64,000 nucleotides of DNA. It comes from Cellulomonas gilvus ATCC 13127. Lineage in GTDB: Bacteria; Actinomycetota; Actinomycetes; Actinomycetales; Cellulomonadaceae. The DNA lies in assembly GCF_000218545.1 (NCBI RefSeq), contig NC_015671.1:2046001-2110000 (forward strand), in the 5' to 3' direction. The notes under the pieces were generated by a model. It had not been told where the DNA came from. It made no database searches and saw only the letters and a program-made list of their open reading frames with translations. A program made the translations under genes and the position numbers. Positions 7,647 to 63,975 of this stretch are shown piece by piece. Numbering within the stretch: position 1 is the stretch's first letter; the number at the start of each line of letters is the position of its first letter.

Positions 7647-8735
7647 TCAGGCCGAGCAGGTGGCCGTGAGCGCGCCCGGCGTCCCCGAGCCGATGAAGCC
7701 GACGTTGGCGGACGCTCCAGCACCCAGCGACGCGTTCCAGGCCGCCGGGCTGATGGTGCTCCCGGACAGCGTCCCGCCCCAGATCTGGCTGATCGTCGCG
7801 CCGCCCACCTGCACGGACCACGAGCGGATGGGCGCGGAGCCCGCCGTGACCACGACGTCGCCGATGTAGCCGCCGGGCCACGTGCTGGAGACCTTCACGG
7901 TCGCGGTGCACGCACCGCCGGGCTGCGTCGTCGGACCGGACGTCGGCCCGCTCGTCGGCTCAGAGGTGGGCTCCGAGGTGGGCTCGGTGGTGGGCTCGGT
8001 CGTGGGTTCGGTGGTGGGCTCGCTCGTCGGCTCCGTGGTCGGTTCGGTGCCGCCGCCGATCATGATGTCCGAGCACAGGTAGTACGACTGGTCGAGGTGG
8101 CTGGCCTGCCAGATCGTGTAGAGCACGGCGCGCCCGCTGCGCCCCGGGAGGTCGATGTCGGTCTGGTACAGGCCCGTGGTCGGGTAGCGACCGGTCGTCT
8201 TCAGCAGCTCGAGGTCCGACCACGCGAGCGCTTTGGTCGTCGGGTCGTACCCCGGCTTGCTCACGTAGACCTTGAGGTAGTCGGCGCCGTGCTTCGCGCT
8301 GTCGGTGAGCGTCAGCGTGAAGCTGTTCGGCACGCTCGTCGTCGTCCACCGTCCGGGCGTGTCGAGCGAGCCGTAGCGGCCGTCGAAAGTTCGGCCGGCG
8401 CTGCACAGCTGGCCGTCCGGGATCGCAGCCTCGTGGTTGCCCGCGACGCCCTCACGGAACAGGCCGTTCCAGTTCCACATGGTGTTGGGGTCGGCCTGGA
8501 ACGCCGCCCAGCACATGGGGTCTTCGTCGGCCATCTCGGGGTTGAGGTGGTCGGAGCCCCACCGCAGCCAGCAGCCGTAGTTGCGGCTCGCGGGGTCGGT
8601 CACCGAACCGTGCGCGCTCGCGCCGGGCGCCGCGAGCGTCGTGACGCCGAGCGCGACCACGATCGCGACGGGCAGTGCGAGCGCGATCCGGCGCAGCCGC
8701 CGCAGCGGCCCTGTCCGGTCGGGAGAACGTCGCAT
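7647..8735 (-). CDS. secreted AA10 lytic polysaccharide monooxygenase with CBM2
   Basis: The 362-residue precursor has an Arg-rich n-region, a hydrophobic core and an ASA cleavage site that leaves His42 as the mature N-terminus, as required for the copper histidine brace. The second brace histidine is His149 (AKHGADYLKVY), and Tyr218 of QSYYLCSD occupies the axial position that is often Phe. A linker of ten four-residue [T/S][E/G]PT units (residues 230-272) joins a C-terminal CBM2 (276-362, terminal cysteines, Trp in STWPGGY and QIWGG). It oxidatively cleaves crystalline cellulose or chitin outside the cell. ATG 8735 follows an AGGAGG site; an upstream in-frame start has none. Confidence 0.93.
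   Translation of the reverse strand: MRRSPDRTGPLRRLRRIALALPVAIVVALGVTTLAAPGASAHGSVTDPASRNYGCWLRWGSDHLNPEMADEDPMCWAAFQADPNTMWNWNGLFREGVAGNHEAAIPDGQLCSAGRTFDGRYGSLDTPGRWTTTSVPNSFTLTLTDSAKHGADYLKVYVSKPGYDPTTKALAWSDLELLKTTGRYPTTGLYQTDIDLPGRSGRAVLYTIWQASHLDQSYYLCSDIMIGGGTEPTTEPTSEPTTEPTTEPTTEPTSEPTSEPTSGPTSGPTTQPGGACTATVKVSSTWPGGYIGDVVVTAGSAPIRSWSVQVGGATISQIWGGTLSGSTISPAAWNASLGAGASANVGFIGSGTPGALTATCSA
7920..8048. repeat. 12-bp tandem repeat coding for the LPMO linker
   Basis: Ten units of 12 bases encode the [T/S][E/G]PT linker of the LPMO. Units near 7960-8040 are almost identical at the DNA level, so slippage could change linker length between strains. It is coding sequence, not an intergenic array. 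Confidence 0.8.
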
Positions 8736-13380: not shown

Positions 13381-14655
13381 TCAGCCCTGCGCGGGCGGGG
13401 CGGGCGGGCCGGGGTCGGGTCCCTTGCGCAGCCACTCGTCGTCCGCGGCACCCGGCGCGGGAGCCCCCGACGCGGGCGGCACCGGCGCCGGCGGGGCGGG
13501 CGGCGCGTCGGGCGCGTGCCGCGGCGGGACCGCGGCGCCGCCCGGGCGCTGGCCCAGCTCGGCGGCGGGGTCGAACGGCCGGCCCGAGAGCGTCCCGGCC
13601 GACGTCGCGTCCGCGGTCGCCGCCGCGGACTCGCGCTTGGCCTCGGCGAGCGCCTCGGCCGGGTCGGTGAGTGCGACAGGCGGCAGGTCGTCACCCAGCG
13701 GCGAGGTCCCCGCGGGCCGCGAGCCCGCGGGTGCGCCGTCCCCACCGAACGCACCGCCGAAGCCCTGCGCCATCTGTCCCAGCGCACCGGTCAGCTCGCT
13801 CGGCAGGAACCACATCTTGTTGGACGGGTACGCCGCGATCTTGGGCAGCGTCTGCAGGTACTGGTAGGCCAGCAGCTTGGGGTCGGCGTCACCGCGGTGC
13901 ACGGCGTCGAAGACCTGGAGGATCGCGCGGGCCTCACCCTCGGCACGCAGGATCGCCGACTGCGCCTCACCCTCGGCACGCAGGATCGCCGACTGCTTCT
14001 CGCCCTCGGCCGTGAGGATCTGCGACTGCTTGACACCCTCGGCGGTGAGGATCGCGGCACGGCGGTCCCGCTCGGCGCGCATCTGCTGCTCCATCGAGCC
14101 CTGCACCGAGGCGGGCGGGTCGATGGCCTTGAGCTCGACGCGGTTGACGCGGATGCCCCACTTGCCCGTGGCCTCGTCCAGCACGCCGCGCAGCTGGCCG
14201 TTGATCTGGTCACGGCTCGTGAGGGTCTGCTCGAGGTCCATCGAACCGATCACGTTGCGCAGCGTCGTCACGGTGAGCTGCTCGATGCCGGTGATGTAGT
14301 TCGCGATCTCGTAGACCGCCGACTTGGGGTCGGTCACCTGGAAGTAGATGACCGTGTCGATGCTCACGACCAGGTTGTCGGACGTGATCACGGGCTGCGG
14401 CGGGAACGAGACGACCTGCTCGCGCAGGTCCACGCCCGCGCGCACACGGTCGACGAACGGGATCAGCAGGTGCAGGCCCGCGTCGAGCGTGCGCGAGTAG
14501 CGCCCGAGCCGCTCGACGATGACCGCCACGGTCTGCGGCACGATCCGCACCGAGCGGAACAGCGCGATGACGACGAACAGCAGGACGAGCCCGAGCACGA
14601 CGATCAGCGCGATCTGTCCGACGTTCGTCGTCGTCGTGGTGGTGTCCTCCAGCAT
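13381..14655 (-). CDS. SPFH/band-7 (stomatin-like) membrane protein
   Basis: The 424-residue protein has one N-terminal membrane helix (IALIVVLGLVLLFVVIALF), a band-7 domain from about residue 30 to 190 containing QTVAVIVERLGRYSRTLDAGLHLLIPFVDRV, and a coiled coil with near-identical AEGE-QSAILR units. A Pro/Ala/Gly-rich tail of ~130 residues follows. Such proteins form rings on the inner membrane face and scaffold proteases or microdomains, often with a NfeD partner, which is encoded just upstream here. The ATG at 14655 follows an AGGAGG site at good spacing. Family and pairing are secure; the clients are unknown. Confidence 0.9.
   Translation of the reverse strand: MLEDTTTTTTNVGQIALIVVLGLVLLFVVIALFRSVRIVPQTVAVIVERLGRYSRTLDAGLHLLIPFVDRVRAGVDLREQVVSFPPQPVITSDNLVVSIDTVIYFQVTDPKSAVYEIANYITGIEQLTVTTLRNVIGSMDLEQTLTSRDQINGQLRGVLDEATGKWGIRVNRVELKAIDPPASVQGSMEQQMRAERDRRAAILTAEGVKQSQILTAEGEKQSAILRAEGEAQSAILRAEGEARAILQVFDAVHRGDADPKLLAYQYLQTLPKIAAYPSNKMWFLPSELTGALGQMAQGFGGAFGGDGAPAGSRPAGTSPLGDDLPPVALTDPAEALAEAKRESAAATADATSAGTLSGRPFDPAAELGQRPGGAAVPPRHAPDAPPAPPAPVPPASGAPAPGAADDEWLRKGPDPGPPAPPAQG
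13931..14062. repeat. 33-bp tandem repeat inside the SPFH gene
   Basis: Four 33-base units encode the coiled-coil repeat of the SPFH protein. The first two (13931-13963 and 13964-13996) are identical base for base; the next two are diverged. Identity at synonymous positions points to recent duplication or gene conversion. Confidence 0.85.
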
Positions 14656-54694: not shown

Positions 54695-55686
54695 GCGCCG
54701 CCTCCGCGGGTGATCCCGTCCCGCAGCACGGGGTCGAGCGCGGGGTCGAGCGCTGCATCGGGCGCCGGTCCCGGCGACGGCGCGTCGGGCAGCACCGCCT
54801 CGCGCCCCGCCGCCTCACGCACCGTCGCCGGCGCGTGCGCGGTCCCGCGCCCTCGCCAGCCCTCGACGGGCAGGGCGAACTTGTTGACCAGCCGCGTCGT
54901 GAACGGTGCCGGGGTCAGCCGGGCCAGACGCACCGGGACGGGGCTCCGGGTGATCTCGACGCGCGAGCCGCGCGGGACCTCGAGGCGGCGGCGGCCGTCG
55001 CACGTGAGAAGGCCCGCGGCGGGCGAACGGTCCAGCACCTCGATCGCGAGCGTGCTGCGCGGACCGACGACCAGCGGTCGCGCGAACAGCGCATGTGCGG
55101 ACATCGGCACCAGGATCATCCCGTCGACGTCGGGCCACACCACCGGGCCGCCCGCGGAGAACGCGTGCGCGGTCGAGCCCGTCGCCGTCGCCGTGACGAT
55201 CCCGTCGCAGCCGAAGCTGGACAGGGGCCGTCCGTCCACCTCGACCGCGACCTCGAGGATCCGCGACTCGCCCTTCTCGAGCGCGGCCTCGTTGAGCGCC
55301 CAGTCGTGCACCACGCGTCCGTCGGGAGCCTGCACGCGCACGGCGATGGTCATGCGTTCCTCGACGGTGAAGTCGCCCGCGGTGACGCGACGCACCGCCT
55401 CCCCCACGTCGTCACGTTCGCTCTCGGCGAGGAACCCCACGTGCCCCAGGTTGACGCCGAGCAGCGGGATCCCGCACGCACGCGTCAGCTCGGCCGCGCG
55501 CAGGATCGTGCCGTCCCCGCCCAGGACGACCGCGATCTCGACCTCGGGGAGGTCGTGGGCGGTCGCGTCCTCGTCGACGACGACGGGCTCCACGCCCGCC
55601 GCCTCGAGCTCCTGCACTGCCTCCCGCATCGCGAGGACCGCCTCGCTCCGGCCCCCGTGCGTCACGACGAGCGCACGTCGCGTCAC
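54691..55686 (-). CDS. nadK: NAD kinase
   Basis: The 331-residue enzyme phosphorylates NAD to NADP. It has the GGDGT motif in VVLGGDGTILRAAEL, NLGHVGFLAE, and TATGSTAHAFSAGGPVVWP for NAD binding. A Pro/Ala-rich tail of ~45 residues extends beyond the usual end. GTG 55686 overlaps the tlyA stop. The tlyA-nadK-recN order is that of Rv1694-Rv1696. Confidence 0.95.
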   Translation of the reverse strand: MTRRALVVTHGGRSEAVLAMREAVQELEAAGVEPVVVDEDATAHDLPEVEIAVVLGGDGTILRAAELTRACGIPLLGVNLGHVGFLAESERDDVGEAVRRVTAGDFTVEERMTIAVRVQAPDGRVVHDWALNEAALEKGESRILEVAVEVDGRPLSSFGCDGIVTATATGSTAHAFSAGGPVVWPDVDGMILVPMSAHALFARPLVVGPRSTLAIEVLDRSPAAGLLTCDGRRRLEVPRGSRVEITRSPVPVRLARLTPAPFTTRLVNKFALPVEGWRGRGTAHAPATVREAAGREAVLPDAPSPGPAPDAALDPALDPVLRDGITRGGGA

Positions 55687-56528
55687 AGCACACCCCCGGC
55701 CCAGTCGCCGTTCGTGACGCGCGCGATCGGCTCCTCGGGCACCGTCGGCGCCGGGGCCGGCGACGGGCCCTGGGCGGGTCCCGCCGGTGCGTCGGCCGGC
55801 CGGAGCCACAGGAAGTACTCGACGTTGCCGCTCGGACCGGGCAGCGGGCTCCGCACGACACCCGCGACCGCCAGCCCCAGCCGCGCGGCCTCGTGCGCGA
55901 CGCCGCTCACCGCGCGAAACCGCAACCCTGCGTCCCTGACCACACCACCCGACCCGAGGAGCTCCCGCCCGACCTCGAACTGGGGCTTGACCATGACCAG
56001 CAGGTCGGCGCCCGGCGCGGCGACGCCCTGCAACGCCGGCAGGACCAGGCCGAGCGAGATGAACGACAGGTCGGCGACGACGAGCGACGGGGCGGGGGCG
56101 AGGTCGCCCGCGGCCAGGTGGCGCACGTTGACGCCCTCGCGGACCTCCACGCGCGGGTCCGCACGCAACGCGGCCACCAGCTGGTCGTGCCCGACGTCGA
56201 CCGCGTGGACGCGTAGCGCACCACGCCGCAGCAGGACGTCCGTGAACCCGCCCGTGCTTGCGCCCGCGTCGAGACACACGCGCCCCGTCACGTCGAGCGA
56301 CGGCAACGCGTCGAGCGCGCCCGCCAGCTTGTGCCCCGCGCGCGAGGCGTACGCGGGCTCGTCCGGTGCATCGACCTCGAGTCCCGCCTCCGGCGTCACC
56401 GAAGCCGCGCTCCGCACCACCGGGTGGCCGTCCACGGCCACCCGGCCCGCCTTGATGAGCTCTCCCGCATGCCGGCGCGAGCGCGCCAGACCCCGCCGCA
56501 CGAGCTCGGCGTCGAGCCGCGTCGTCAT
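55683..56528 (-). CDS. tlyA: TlyA-type rRNA 2'-O-methyltransferase
   Basis: The 281-residue protein joins an N-terminal S4 RNA-binding domain (RLDAELVRRGLARSRRHAGELIKAGRVAVDG) to an FtsJ-like methyltransferase with the SAM site VCLDAGASTGGFTDVLLRRG and catalytic residues including VADLSFISLG and VKPQFEVGRE. TlyA methylates cytidine riboses in 16S (C1409) and 23S rRNA (C1920, E. coli numbering), which makes ribosomes sensitive to capreomycin. A Pro/Ala-rich extension of ~35 residues is at the C-terminus. Confidence 0.94.
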   Translation of the reverse strand: MTTRLDAELVRRGLARSRRHAGELIKAGRVAVDGHPVVRSAASVTPEAGLEVDAPDEPAYASRAGHKLAGALDALPSLDVTGRVCLDAGASTGGFTDVLLRRGALRVHAVDVGHDQLVAALRADPRVEVREGVNVRHLAAGDLAPAPSLVVADLSFISLGLVLPALQGVAAPGADLLVMVKPQFEVGRELLGSGGVVRDAGLRFRAVSGVAHEAARLGLAVAGVVRSPLPGPSGNVEYFLWLRPADAPAGPAQGPSPAPAPTVPEEPIARVTNGDWAGGVL

Positions 56529-56532
56529 CGCG

Positions 56533-56793
56533 TCACCCCTGCGTCTCGGCGAGGCGGTCCTGCAACGCGCCGTGCACGGCGTCGAACGCCGCGACGTGGC
56601 GGCTCAGCGGAGCGTCGGCGAGCCCCTCGAGAGCACGCAGCGCCTCGTCCACCGACGCGTCCCCCGTCGAGGCCTCCGCGCGCGCACGGGCGGTCTCGAC
56701 GTGCGCCGCCAGGTCCGCGGGCGACGCGGGCGCGTGCGCGGCTCGGGGCGCCACGGGGCCCGAGCCCTCGTCGTGCGTCGCCGGACCGTCCAT
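56533..56793 (-). CDS. small hypothetical protein, 86 aa
   Basis: The 86-residue protein has a low-complexity N-terminal third (Pro/Ala/His) and two predicted helices (DLAAHVETARARAEA and VDEALRALEGLADAPLSRHVAAFDAVHGALQDRLAE). No family is recognised. ATG 56793 has GGAGG upstream; a longer frame to 56835 lacks one. It sits between the HAD gene and tlyA, the position of the small Rv1693 in mycobacteria. Confidence 0.72.
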   Translation of the reverse strand: MDGPATHDEGSGPVAPRAAHAPASPADLAAHVETARARAEASTGDASVDEALRALEGLADAPLSRHVAAFDAVHGALQDRLAETQG

Positions 56794-56886
56794 CGCCGCC
56801 ACCCCTCTCCCGTGCGCTCGTGCGTGCGCGCCCACGCTACCCGGCGCCGCCCACGGCGCACGGCGCCACCCACAGCCGCCCGCGGC

Positions 56887-57927
56887 TCAACGCCCGGACA
56901 GCTCCGCGGCCAGCTCCGGCACGCTCGAGGGCTCGAGCGCGCCACCCTCGTCGACCCACGCCCACGCGGCCCCGCACGCCGCACGCACCAGGTCCAGCTG
57001 CGCGTCGTCCGACGTGTGCCGACCGCGTCCGAGCTCGAGCGCGCCGTCCACCACGCGTGCACTCGCGGCACCGCACGTCCACCAGCCGTCACCCGCACGT
57101 GCCGGGGCCTCGTGCGCCACCAGGAGCGCACGCAGGTCGGCACCGATGTAGTGCGGGCGCTCGCCCGGCACCGCGAGCACGTCGTCGCGCGCCGAGCTGA
57201 CGCCCGTGAGCACGTGCAGCCCGGCGAAGTCGCCCGAGCGCGCGCCCGCCAGATCGGTGTCGAGCCGGTCGCCGACCACGAGCGCCTCGCGGGCGCCCGC
57301 CCGTTCGACCGCCATCCGGTACATCGTCGGCGAGGGCTTGCCAGCACTGTCCGGGGCGACGCCCGTGGCGGCGCGCACCGCACCGACCAGCGACCCGTTC
57401 CCGGGCGCGAACCCGCGCGCCGTCGGCAGGCTCAGGTCCAGGTTGGACGCGACGTGCCACGCACCCCGCTCCACCGCGTACGCCGCCTCCGCGAGCTGCG
57501 CCCACCCGACCTCGGGGGCGAAACCCTGGGCCACGGCGGCCGGCGCGTCGTCCGCCGACTCGACGACGACGTACCCGGCCTCCCGCACCGCGGTCCGCAG
57601 CCCCGCCCCGCCCACGACGAGCACCCGCTCGCCCTGAGGCAGCCGGGAGCGCAGCAGGGCGGCAGCGGCCTGCGCAGCCGTCATGACCTCCTCGGGCGAC
57701 GTCGGGATGTCGAGCTCGGTGAGCTGTGCGGCCACCGAGCCCGGCTCACGCGACGCGTTGTTCGTCACGAACACCAGCCGCATGCCTCGTTCACGCGCCC
57801 CGGCGAGACCGTCGGACGCGAACGGGATCGGCTCGTGACCGCGGTACGCGACGCCGTCGAGGTCGACGAGCGCCAGGTCGTACCGCTCCGCGAGCGGCGT
57901 GGCCGACGCGAGCAGCCCTCCGCTCAC
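56887..57927 (-). CDS. HAD-IIA family hydrolase (NagD/Rv1692-like)
   Basis: The 346-residue phosphatase has motif I LALVDLDGVAYRG, motif II VFVTNNASR, a C2 cap, the late Lys in GKPSPTMYRMAVERAG and the metal site VVGDRLDTDLAGARSGDFAGLHVLTG. The M. tuberculosis homologue Rv1692 is a glycerol-3-phosphate phosphatase. A C-terminal domain of ~60 residues extends beyond NagD. GTG 57927 overlaps the stop of the RGG-TPR gene. Confidence 0.9.
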   Translation of the reverse strand: MSGGLLASATPLAERYDLALVDLDGVAYRGHEPIPFASDGLAGARERGMRLVFVTNNASREPGSVAAQLTELDIPTSPEEVMTAAQAAAALLRSRLPQGERVLVVGGAGLRTAVREAGYVVVESADDAPAAVAQGFAPEVGWAQLAEAAYAVERGAWHVASNLDLSLPTARGFAPGNGSLVGAVRAATGVAPDSAGKPSPTMYRMAVERAGAREALVVGDRLDTDLAGARSGDFAGLHVLTGVSSARDDVLAVPGERPHYIGADLRALLVAHEAPARAGDGWWTCGAASARVVDGALELGRGRHTSDDAQLDLVRAACGAAWAWVDEGGALEPSSVPELAAELSGR

Positions 57928-60446
57928 CGCTCCTCCCGCCCGTCCTCGGTGTCGGCGCCGGGCGCCTCGACGTCCGCGGCACCGTCCACGTCCGCCTCCG
58001 CGGCCTCGCCCCGGTCCACGTCGTCGACCTCCACGTCGTCCAGGTCCTCGCCCTCCACCCGCACGTCGTCCAGGTCCTCGTCGTCGGCGGACTCCTCGTC
58101 CTCGACGTCGAACACGACGACGTCGTCGTCCTCGTCGTCCGCGCCTTCGACCGCAGCGATCTCGGCCGCGCTGAAGCGCGCGAGCTCCTGCTGCGCGTCC
58201 TGCTCACGGCCGGCCGCCTCGAGCGCGGCCGCGCGCGCGACCGCGACGCGCACCGCGATCGGTCCGGAGAGCCGCTGCAGCGCGGGACCGGCGAGCACAG
58301 CGACCGCCGCCTCGGGCTCCTGCAGGTCCAGCCGCGCGCCGCTGACGACGATCGCCAGCTCGACGCGCGTCTCGGCGTCGAGCTGATCGGCCTCCGGGCT
58401 CTGCGCGAGCGCGATCGCCCGCTCCGGCCGGCCGAGCCCTCGCTCGCAGTCGGCCATGACGGCCAGGTGCTCGGACGAGCCGTTGAGCCTGCGGACCGTG
58501 CGCAGCTCACGCAGCGCCTCGGCGTACCGGCCCGTGCGGTACGCGGCGAGGCCTGCGGCCTCACGCACCACGTCCACGCGCCCACCCCGGCGCACCGCCG
58601 CCTGGGCGTGCTCGTACGCCAGCTCGGGGTCGGTGTCGAGCAGCCGGCCGACCATCACCAGGTGACGGCCGACCTGCCACGCGTTGTCCTTCGACAGCGT
58701 GCGCAGCGGTCCGCGCGCGGCGCGGTCCAGGTCGCTGAAGGACACCTCGTCCGGGATCTCCGGCCCGACGACGCGCTGGTCCTGCGGCGGTCGCGTCGGA
58801 CGTCGCTCGTCCGACGACCACGCACCCGCTCCGGTCCGGGCGTCGCTCGAGCCAGAGCGGCTCCACCCGCCGCGGTCGCCACGACGGTCGTCACGTTCGG
58901 CCGGGCGTCCGCCGCCGTGGCCGGGCCGCCCGTCCTCGCGCCGCGGTCGCTCGACCGCACCCGAGCGGCCGCTGCCGTCCGGGCGTCGGTCCCCCGAGCC
59001 GTACGCCGGCCTGCGGTCGTCCGAGCGCCGGTCGCCGACGCCGGGACGTCGGTCGTCGCGCCAGCCGGCGGCCGGGCGTCGCTCGCCCTGCGGTGCAGTG
59101 CCCCGGTCCGGCCGACGGTCACCCCGATCCGCCCCGCGCGCGTCCCCGGCTCGCTCGTCGCGCGCCCAAGGACGCGCTCCGCCGGACGTCGGGCGCGGCT
59201 CGTCGCGCCGCGGGCGTTCGCCGTTCGCTGCGGGACGGCCCGTGCCGCGGTCGTCCCTCGACGACCGTCGGTCGGGGTACGCGCCCCCACGGGGGGCCGC
59301 TGACCTCGTGCCGTGCGACGACTCGCCGCCACCCGTCCACGAGCTGCGGGTCGGTCCGCCACGCTCCTCGGAACGGCCCGCCCGGCCGTCCGCGCCGCGA
59401 TACCCGCCGTCACGATCGCCGGTCGACGAGTCCCGCTCGCCGGACGTCCGTCCTTCGGAGCCCGCGTCACGTCCGCCGAAGCCACGCTGACCGGCGGCGC
59501 CGCGGTCGCCCGAGCCCCCACGGCCGCCGAAACCGCCGCGCTCACCCGAGCCCCCACGGCCACTGAAGCCTCCGCGCTCACCGGCAGCTCCGCGTCCACC
59601 GGCACCATCGCGCGCGCCGGATCCTCCGCGGGGACCGCTCGACCGGGCGTCGTCCCAGCCGCGCGCAGCCGTCCCGGGACGGCGGTCACCACCGTCACGT
59701 CCGTCGTACGCCCCTCGCGTGGCGGGCGACCCTCCACGCGTGGCACCTGAGCTGTCACCACGGCGCGCGTAGCCGCCCCGCTCGCCGTCGCCGCTCGAGG
59801 AGAAGCCGCCGCGAGGGCCGGACGGGCGCGCGCCACGCTCAGGCCGCGAGCCCCCGAACCCCGGGCGGGATGCTCCGCGCTCACCACGAGACTCAGGCCG
59901 CACGCCACGCTCTCCGCCGAACGACGCACGTCCGCCGTCACGAGATCCCCCACGCGCGCTGTCGTCACCACGCTGAGGACGCGACCCCGCAGCAGAGCCA
60001 CCCCGCCCGTCGTCCCACGAACCGGTGCGACCCTGGGACGGGCGCCCCCCATCGCCGCGACCGTCACCGCGCCGCGGTCCCTGGGACCACGCGCCGCCAC
60101 CGGCGGCGCCGCCCCTGGCGTCAGAGCCTCGACCCGACGCGCCGCGCTCCGACCACCCGCCCGGCGAACCGGTCACGCGCCCACCGGACTGCCCGGCCCC
60201 GCGCGAGGAGTACGCACCCCGGGGACCGCCCGAGCCGTCCTCACCACGACGCGCGCGGGAGCTGTCGCGCGCACCCGCAGGCCGCGAGTCACCGAACCGG
60301 CCCGTGCCGCGGCGATCACCCGACTCGCCCTGGCCCGAGGCGCGTCCGCCGGACGGACCACCGCCCGCGAAACGCCCGCCGCCGGCGGACCCACCACGCT
60401 CGTCCCGTCCACGCGCTGCGCGTGCGTCCCTGTCGTCGCTGTTCAT
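57924..60446 (-). CDS. RGG-rich disordered / TPR / acidic-tail protein, 840 aa
   Basis: The C-terminal part resembles the ~250-residue TPR protein found before the HAD gene in this locus (Rv1691-like): about residues 554-765 hold helical repeats such as AYEHAQAAVRRGGRVDVVREAAGLAAYRTGRYAEALRELR. The first ~550 residues are unlike that family: almost only Gly, Arg, Ser, Asp, Ala and Pro, with RGG, GGR and DRR recurring throughout, as in eukaryotic RGG-box RNA-binding proteins. The last ~70 residues are acidic (DDEDDDVVVFDVEDEES). The frame is unbroken over 2.5 kb. ATG 60446 has AGGAG upstream. It lies just downstream of the rRNA terminator. RNA binding or phase separation is an inference. Confidence 0.85.
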   Translation of the reverse strand: MNSDDRDARAARGRDERGGSAGGGRFAGGGPSGGRASGQGESGDRRGTGRFGDSRPAGARDSSRARRGEDGSGGPRGAYSSRGAGQSGGRVTGSPGGWSERGASGRGSDARGGAAGGGAWSQGPRRGDGRGDGGRPSQGRTGSWDDGRGGSAAGSRPQRGDDSARGGSRDGGRASFGGERGVRPESRGERGASRPGFGGSRPERGARPSGPRGGFSSSGDGERGGYARRGDSSGATRGGSPATRGAYDGRDGGDRRPGTAARGWDDARSSGPRGGSGARDGAGGRGAAGERGGFSGRGGSGERGGFGGRGGSGDRGAAGQRGFGGRDAGSEGRTSGERDSSTGDRDGGYRGADGRAGRSEERGGPTRSSWTGGGESSHGTRSAAPRGGAYPDRRSSRDDRGTGRPAANGERPRRDEPRPTSGGARPWARDERAGDARGADRGDRRPDRGTAPQGERRPAAGWRDDRRPGVGDRRSDDRRPAYGSGDRRPDGSGRSGAVERPRREDGRPGHGGGRPAERDDRRGDRGGWSRSGSSDARTGAGAWSSDERRPTRPPQDQRVVGPEIPDEVSFSDLDRAARGPLRTLSKDNAWQVGRHLVMVGRLLDTDPELAYEHAQAAVRRGGRVDVVREAAGLAAYRTGRYAEALRELRTVRRLNGSSEHLAVMADCERGLGRPERAIALAQSPEADQLDAETRVELAIVVSGARLDLQEPEAAVAVLAGPALQRLSGPIAVRVAVARAAALEAAGREQDAQQELARFSAAEIAAVEGADDEDDDVVVFDVEDEESADDEDLDDVRVEGEDLDDVEVDDVDRGEAAEADVDGAADVEAPGADTEDGREER

Positions 60447-60620
60447 CTCGTGCTCTCCTCGCGTCAACGCTCATCGTCTCATCCGGGCGGCACCGTCTCG
60501 CCCGGTGCGGCACACGCTCGACAGAGGCGGGCACCCGCCGGGCCCGCAACCGGGAAGCCACGGGCGAGCCGCGGCACCGTAGCGGGCATCGACGACGCCA
60601 AGCACAGAAGCGCCCAGAAA

Positions 60621-60657
60621 CAGAACAAGCCACCCCGCGATGGGGTGGCTTGTTCTG
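60621..60657 (-). terminator. rRNA operon terminator
   Basis: A 16-base stem (CAGAACAAGCCACCCC at 60621-60636 with 60642-60657) has a five-base loop. On the minus strand it is followed by a pyrimidine-rich stretch. It ends the rRNA transcript about 170 bases before the RGG-TPR gene. Confidence 0.9.
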
Positions 60658-60663
60658 AATGGT

Positions 60664-60782
60664 GTCCGGCGGCGTCCTACTCTCCCACACCCTGGCGAGT
60701 GCAGTACCATCGGCGCTGAAGGGCTTAGCTTCCGGGTTCGGAATGGGACCGGGCGTTTCCCCTTCGCTATGACCGCCGTAAC
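60664..60782 (-). rRNA. rrf: 5S ribosomal RNA
   Basis: The minus strand begins GTTACGGCGGTCATAGCG and ends GACGCCGCCGGACA, with the universal CCCATTCCGAACCCGGAAG loop and GGGAGAGTAGGACG near the 3' end. Terminal arms CGGCGG and CCGCCG pair. Exact ends are estimated to within a few bases. Confidence 0.93.
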
Positions 60783-60871
60783 TCTGTCGAGTTGTGAACG
60801 GGACCCCCGTGGGGGTGTCGTTCGTTTCTCGGGAACCGCACAGTGGACGCGTAGCATTGAAAAGTTGTGGT
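60783..60871 (-). other. 23S-5S spacer
   Basis: This 89-base spacer contains a short C5/G5 hairpin at 60803-60816 and, next to the 23S end, CCACAA, which can pair with TTGTGG just before the 23S 5' end to form the processing stem. No tRNA is present. Confidence 0.7.

Positions 60872-63975
<3,104 letters not shown>

Follow-up and report, generated by a model that had tools for sequence, protein, structure and literature searches.

A gene on the minus strand of a 64,000-nucleotide stretch of Cellulomonas gilvus ATCC 13127 (NC_015671.1, positions 2,046,001 to 2,110,000; the whole stretch is called the window below) belongs to a family of TPR proteins that extends across the class Actinomycetes, is thinner in the rest of the phylum and usually lies directly downstream of a ribosomal RNA (rRNA) operon. 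The protein consists of an arginine-rich, low-complexity N-terminus, a TPR core and an acidic tail. The best explanation, which is put forward tentatively, is that it may serve as an RNA-binding adaptor that acts, close to RNA polymerase, on rRNA being transcribed or matured; an RNA-related role in general is plausible. Action on rRNA was preferred because an analogy with the actinobacterial termination factor Rho, the rRNA setting of the gene and the pull-down of a mycobacterial orthologue with RNA polymerase were considered in combination.

The gene (57924..60446, minus strand) runs from an ATG at 60446 to a stop codon at 57924-57926, encodes 840 residues and was the single match in a search of the C. 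gilvus genome. Residues 1-552 (58791..60446, minus strand) form a low-complexity region rich in Arg, Gly, Ser and Asp (27.9% Gly, 20.7% Arg, 11.4% Ser, 10.3% Ala, 9.4% Asp and 4.1% aromatic residues), which contains tandem repeats and no Lys, carries a net charge of +38 and is probably disordered, to judge from its composition. The TPR solenoid core comprises residues 553-765 (58152..58790, minus strand). It is followed by the acidic tail, residues 766-840 (57927..58151, minus strand), with 38 acidic residues, a net charge of -34 and a short hydrophobic-acidic motif, VVVFDV, at residues 776-781 (58104..58121, minus strand). A Shine-Dalgarno-like GAGGAG (60455..60460, minus strand) precedes the ATG, and a GAGGAG-type sequence was likewise found in the gaps upstream of the same-genus orthologues. 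The coordinates, strand, domain order and setting agree with those given by an earlier model reading of the letters alone (the sequence-only reading), and the three-part architecture that it described was borne out by composition, charge and a fold model.

The core was modelled by AlphaFold as a TPR solenoid, an array of paired antiparallel helices, with predicted local distance difference test (pLDDT) values mostly of 94-98. The TPR assignment rests on this model and not on the Pfam score; the Pfam TPR models remained below their gathering scores (TPR_16, 18.1 versus 32.7 bits; TPR_2, 14 versus 27 bits). Divergent TPRs are frequently missed by Pfam. Searches of the whole protein against Pfam and NCBIfam returned just weak TPR-type and other sub-threshold matches and no match to Rho, which C. 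gilvus encodes elsewhere. A single weak match to solved structures was obtained by sequence (MamA, E 0.0053). Among the best 50 structural neighbours many TPR proteins were tied, several of them peptide-binding and none outstanding, and no function follows from them; nor was any RNA-binding protein outstanding among these 50.

The comparison of orthologues drew on 40 loci of the order, 80 named loci and 20 of the class. The upstream part was readable at 115 of these 140; the other 25 either ran past the end of their stretch or were ambiguous, and were set aside. The start of each orthologue was taken as the first ATG with a Shine-Dalgarno-like match, a rule under which individual lengths and gaps may err, the shortest above all, and the charges and lengths were counted over a set that was not made non-redundant. 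The N-terminus is net-positive at 113 of the 115 loci and the C-terminus acidic at all 115. N-terminal length ranges from 22 to 761 residues with a median of 354, and Arg content from 13% to 34%. All 18 same-genus orthologues that could be measured have N-termini of 376-654 residues. Outside the class the N-termini are often short (from 7 residues by the start rule, with the chosen starts of loci L267 and L281 falling within or next to rRNA), and several have 240-420 Arg-rich residues. The sequence-only reading took a short TPR protein to be all that this locus normally encodes; that premise is thus wrong. Close relatives without an Arg/Gly-rich region were looked for among the 18 same-genus orthologues and none was found. 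A local fusion of an RGG region onto a short TPR protein was ruled out, since the Arg-rich N-terminus is class-wide and is long in every one of these orthologues.

In two small genomes of 49% guanine-plus-cytosine (GC) content (L212 and L224, close relatives of one another) the N-terminal region has 48 Arg and no Lys, compared with 122 Arg and 111 Lys in the matched parts of three adjacent genes (Fisher p 2.4e-12). GC pressure is therefore insufficient on its own and, on these two genomes, was rejected as the sole cause of the Arg-richness. The same N-termini have just 8% Gly and carry RPSS/GRPSS repeats instead of RGG boxes, so that, on the sequences compared, the conserved feature is Arg in a low-complexity chain and not the RGG box.

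The N-terminal region is coding, as judged from its pattern of substitution. Between the orthologues at L060 and L062, the TPR cores of which are 98% identical, 64, 53 and 147 differences fall at codon positions 1, 2 and 3, respectively, and the ratio of nonsynonymous to synonymous differences (pN/pS) in this region is 0.37; over the 14 closest orthologue pairs the ratio ranges from 0.31 to 0.73 and is below 1 in all of them. Translation might alternatively begin near the TPR domain and leave the N-terminal part untranslated, a possibility also raised in the sequence-only reading, which had named a start near residue 550. High-GC DNA leaves frames open by chance, and in-frame GTG codons are present at codons 91 and 182, the latter preceded by GGAG. 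These two and codon 1 are the only in-frame ATG, GTG or TTG codons within codons 1-552, and none lies in codons 183-552 of the window gene, which speaks against translation from around residue 550. Together with the third-position bias of the differences and the opening MNSD or MNSE of 14 of 19 N-termini (18 same-genus orthologues, two of 20 being left out, and the window), this led to rejection of a downstream start; a conserved element also lies upstream of the ATG (see below), and an untranslated N-terminus is extremely improbable.

The motif of the acidic tail, written as the pattern [VIL]x[VILSF][FYVI]D[LVIAT], is present in 68 of the 126 orthologue tails that have at least 30 residues, compared with a mean of 1.8 and a maximum of 7 in shuffled tails; the count varies with the width of the pattern (55/127 or 68/126), and a narrower pattern is present in all 20 same-genus tails. 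The net charges of the two tails, N-terminal and C-terminal, vary together across the 115 loci (Spearman -0.50, relatedness ignored). This fits the suggestion of the sequence-only reading that the acidic tail pairs with the Arg-rich region and falls short of proving it. The acidic tail is partly encoded by a 30-nt tandem repeat at 58006-58086, and both tails may therefore vary in length through repeats. Further tandem repeats of the window were noted at 7945-8049 (periods 12/36) and 13931-14043 (period 33).

The connection with rRNA goes further, and has more evidence behind it, than could be known from the sequence-only reading. In the window, 5S rRNA (60664..60780, minus strand; Rfam RF00001, 102.7 bits) ends 217 nt upstream of the gene, and 23S rRNA lies beyond it (60867..63975, minus strand; Rfam RF02541, 2756.5 bits). 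Of 60 class stretches, 55 have a 5S rRNA upstream of the gene in the same orientation (19/20 in the genus, 18/20 in the order and 18/20 in the rest of the class, the last set being 20 stretches from 19 genomes); at L077 and L221, two of those without it, the contig ends close upstream. The 55 gaps between 5S and gene have a median of 182 nt, and 54 of them are at most 914 nt, one being 3,280 nt. The gap of 914 nt, at L075, is too long, as the start lies in a stretch containing Ns; it was counted, moreover, from an additional, divergent 5S rRNA (63.6 bits) that stands between the normal 5S and the TPR gene of L075.

Outside the class, rRNA was sought within 4 kb upstream by blastn with the 5S and the 23S end of the window, and was found in 19 of 31 stretches. 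Of the 11 stretches with 5-6 kb of downstream sequence available, 8 have rRNA upstream and 3 have HAD or TlyA. This contrast was drawn on those 11 only, because the other 20 have about 2 kb or less downstream (HAD or TlyA in 2 of them). A contig start within 2.5 kb was counted by hand on the upstream side of 10 of 26 plus-strand hits and on the downstream side of 0 of 17 minus-strand hits. Contig starts on the upstream side are expected because assemblies break at rRNA operons, and the asymmetry is an independent sign of upstream rRNA.

Immediately after the 5S rRNA of the window lies a 16-bp hairpin (60621..60657, minus strand; -32.2 kcal/mol, z -7.7), likely to be the rRNA terminator; at 55 of 55 loci the first 70 nt after 5S are predicted to form a hairpin with at least 7 bp. 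In nine of the 55 gaps (eight genomes) only 11-40 nt separate the hairpin from the start codon. So short a space could hardly contain a promoter, and these nine genes are therefore probably transcribed by read-through from the rRNA operon. A conserved ATGAGACGATG in the window (60472..60482, minus strand) contains a possible extended -10 element (TGAGACGAT). Besides the window, 12 of 19 gaps of the genus contain the sequence ATGAGACNATG; in 11 of them (L061, L063-L068, L072-L074 and L076), as in the window, it lies 36-45 nt before the chosen start, with one further copy at L075, and 12 occurrences in total were counted in the 446,648 bases of the same-genus loci on both strands. It is possible that TGAGACCAT is an extended -10 element, and ATGAGACNATG may be a genus-specific promoter element. 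A scan of window positions 60300-60900 for the sigma-70 consensus found no promoter.

The TPR core was matched in 57 of 60 same-genus, 142 of 149 order and 104 of 118 class genomes, with the own genome of C. gilvus counted. A further set of 119 genomes gave 53 with a match, ten in the class and 43 of 109 outside it. The gene is kept in some genomes of 0.8 Mb and of 1.3-1.4 Mb. If the protein does handle rRNA, actinobacteria would gain an rRNA-coupled assembly or transcription factor with an inbuilt means of scaling it to rRNA output.

Downstream, an HAD-IIA hydrolase gene (56887..57927, minus strand; TIGR01460, 108.4 bits versus a cut-off of 100.15) begins with a GTG that overlaps the stop codon of the TPR gene, and the gene of the rRNA methyltransferase TlyA (55683..56528, minus strand; TIGR00478, 198.3 bits versus a cut-off of 185.8) begins about 1.4 kb downstream, so that the rRNA operon and the nearby tlyA of the sequence-only reading were both confirmed. 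HAD lies on the same strand at 130 of the 140 loci, and TlyA likewise at 130. A 100-residue open reading frame between the two genes (56533-56835, minus strand) has no match in NCBIfam, and a similar stretch is present at class loci L216 and L219. The query for NAD kinase was a window reading frame taken, from the gene order, to be that gene. The tyrS gene of the window genome was confirmed by TIGR00234. Genome G230 (L213 and L214; L261 and L262) has two copies of the rRNA operon with the TPR gene; one copy is preceded by tyrS (L261) and only the other is followed by HAD, TlyA and RecN (L214), as if the locus had been split by recombination at the rRNA. The mycobacterial cluster is given in the available part of its description as lprJ, Rv1691, Rv1692, Rv1693, tlyA, ppnK and recN (PMC3072309), which parallels the TPR-HAD-TlyA-RecN order of C. 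gilvus. From this gene order, and not from direct sequence comparison, we infer that the window gene belongs to the Rv1691/MSMEG_3754 group.

If the protein is an adaptor on rRNA, its Arg-rich, Lys-poor N-terminus would hold RNA through many weak contacts, by analogy with the insertions of actinobacterial Rho and with an Arg-rich helicase, and its TPR solenoid would grip another protein. Acting as a competitor within the molecule, the acidic tail would offset part of the charge of the Arg-rich region, and its VVxFDL-type motif would be displayed for a further partner to bind. The position of the gene would link the amount of protein made to rRNA synthesis, through read-through of the terminator where promoter space is nearly nil; in this genus the gene would probably use a promoter of its own. 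Disorder, RNA binding, partner binding, pairing of the two tails, expression by read-through and the role in rRNA handling are all parts of the scheme that we infer, and the points that favour it include the net-positive N-terminus (113/115), the acidic C-terminus (115/115), the preference for Arg over Lys at 49% GC, the adjacency to 5S (55/60), the rRNA upstream in 19 of 31 stretches outside the class, the nine narrow gaps and the presence of the gene in genomes of 0.8 Mb and 1.3-1.4 Mb. A more ambitious version, in which a dedicated Arg-rich scaffold scaled to rRNA synthesis would bring RNA polymerase and maturation factors together with nascent rRNA in a condensate centred on rRNA, as a bacterial counterpart of the nucleolar proteins with glycine/arginine-rich (GAR) domains, seems quite unlikely; the content of Arg (20.7%), Gly (27.9%) and aromatic residues (4.1%) is at most suggestive of a phase-separating scaffold.

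The strongest competing explanation, itself somewhat unlikely, sees the N-terminus as a by-product of mutation, in which GC-rich repeats expand and contract in frame and are tolerated in a loose tether, with the TPR core doing all of the work. The range of lengths (22-761 residues), the tandem repeats of the window region and the weak constraint indicated by a pN/pS of 0.31-0.73 in the 14 closest pairs are consistent with this, as are the mixed 15 Arg and 9 Lys in the region at L091 (a 0.8 Mb genome) and the triplet counts. The 24 RGG/GGR triplets of the window region compare with 17.9 +/- 3.9 in 1000 residue shuffles; the count is thus explained by composition, and the RGG box was ruled out as a specific motif. 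Of the RGG, GGR and DRR triplets that the sequence-only reading saw throughout the region, the 24 RGG/GGR copies are real; they do not significantly exceed what composition gives, and in the last third RGG yields to DRR/RRD/RRP (3 versus 14). A by-product would nevertheless hardly account for Arg without Lys in the two 49%-GC genomes, for the same sign of charge at 113 of 115 loci or for a pN/pS below 1 in 14 of 14 pairs. That the protein is instead a general transcription-associated factor, carried on RNA polymerase or nascent mRNA and without a special tie to rRNA, its place beside rRNA being inherited gene order, is unlikely. MSMEG_3754, described as the orthologue of Rv1691, is on the high-confidence list of a pull-down with the beta subunit of RNA polymerase; according to the accessible part of that report the tagged protein brought down no DNA, and its authors allow an association with RNA (PMC7092591). 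The conservation of tyrS and the downstream genes in the class also suits a general factor, whereas the persistence of rRNA over HAD or TlyA outside the class (8/11 versus just 3/11) does not, and gaps with hardly any promoter room would couple the gene to rRNA transcription. A peptide-binding TPR co-chaperone or proteolysis adaptor, with charged tails that serve solubility only, is very unlikely: the fold resembles several peptide-binding TPR proteins, none outstanding, and MSMEG_3754 is among the ClpC1 interactors of Mycobacterium smegmatis in the part of the interactome report available (PMC10433963), but this function would leave both the preference for Arg over Lys and the rRNA linkage unexplained.

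The listing among ClpC1 interactors and the triplet count also weigh against the rRNA adaptor, and so do the following results. No RNA-binding data on the TPR family were found in the papers retrieved. The tail motif was not placed on the TPR core by AlphaFold (motif pLDDT 52-53), so that a partner in trans is equally likely. Upstream rRNA is absent from class stretches L081 and L091 (one family) and L222, and was not found in 12 of the 31 stretches outside the class, some of which have little sequence. At L081 tyrS stands directly upstream of the TPR gene, the operon having been lost or never having been there. In 15 of 20 stretches the rRNA operon is itself preceded by tyrS, in the same orientation, and outside the class L276, L280 and L282 have tyrS on the same strand and no rRNA. 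As the whole neighbourhood (tyrS, HAD and TlyA) is conserved in the class, the adjacency need not be functional; tyrS-rRNA-TPR is, from these comparisons, an old gene order, which prompts testing of an rRNA role and is no proof of it. In addition, within the phylum but beyond the class, 66 of 109 genomes have no match, and the gene is missing from four of six sampled members of one small-genome family (one 100% and one 93% complete).

Among the papers that could be searched, none described an rRNA-linked TPR protein. Those found that name the mycobacterial member either describe a TPR protein without a known function or just list the name, as PMC11754781 does for Rv1691/MSMEG_3754, and the second mycobacterial rRNA operon is placed downstream of tyrS in the accessible text of PMC10218544. 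The most compact loci of the class (L209, L218 and L222, guessed to be mycobacterial) combine an N-terminus of 41-86 residues with a tail of 14 residues. The Rho proteins of M. tuberculosis and Micrococcus luteus bear a hydrophilic insertion that is described, in the portions available, as predicted to be disordered, poorly conserved and raising the affinity for RNA (PMC4499133, PMC8828861). The Rho of C. gilvus itself bears a RDRDRDRKRGRGR stretch similar in make-up to the Arg-rich N-terminus; Rho is a hexameric motor, whereas the present protein has a TPR core and no match to Rho. An Arg/Gly-rich stretch of similar make-up lies near the C-terminus of a DEAD-box helicase of C. gilvus (L238), so that such a composition occurs in the RNA machinery of the same cell, although there it is a short tail on an enzyme and here it is two thirds of the protein. 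The eukaryotic RGG/GAR-box RNA-binding proteins share with the TPR protein an Arg/Gly-rich low-complexity region with RGG/GGR triplets, and differ from it in that the RGG count here fits the composition and the region is joined to a TPR solenoid and an acidic tail.

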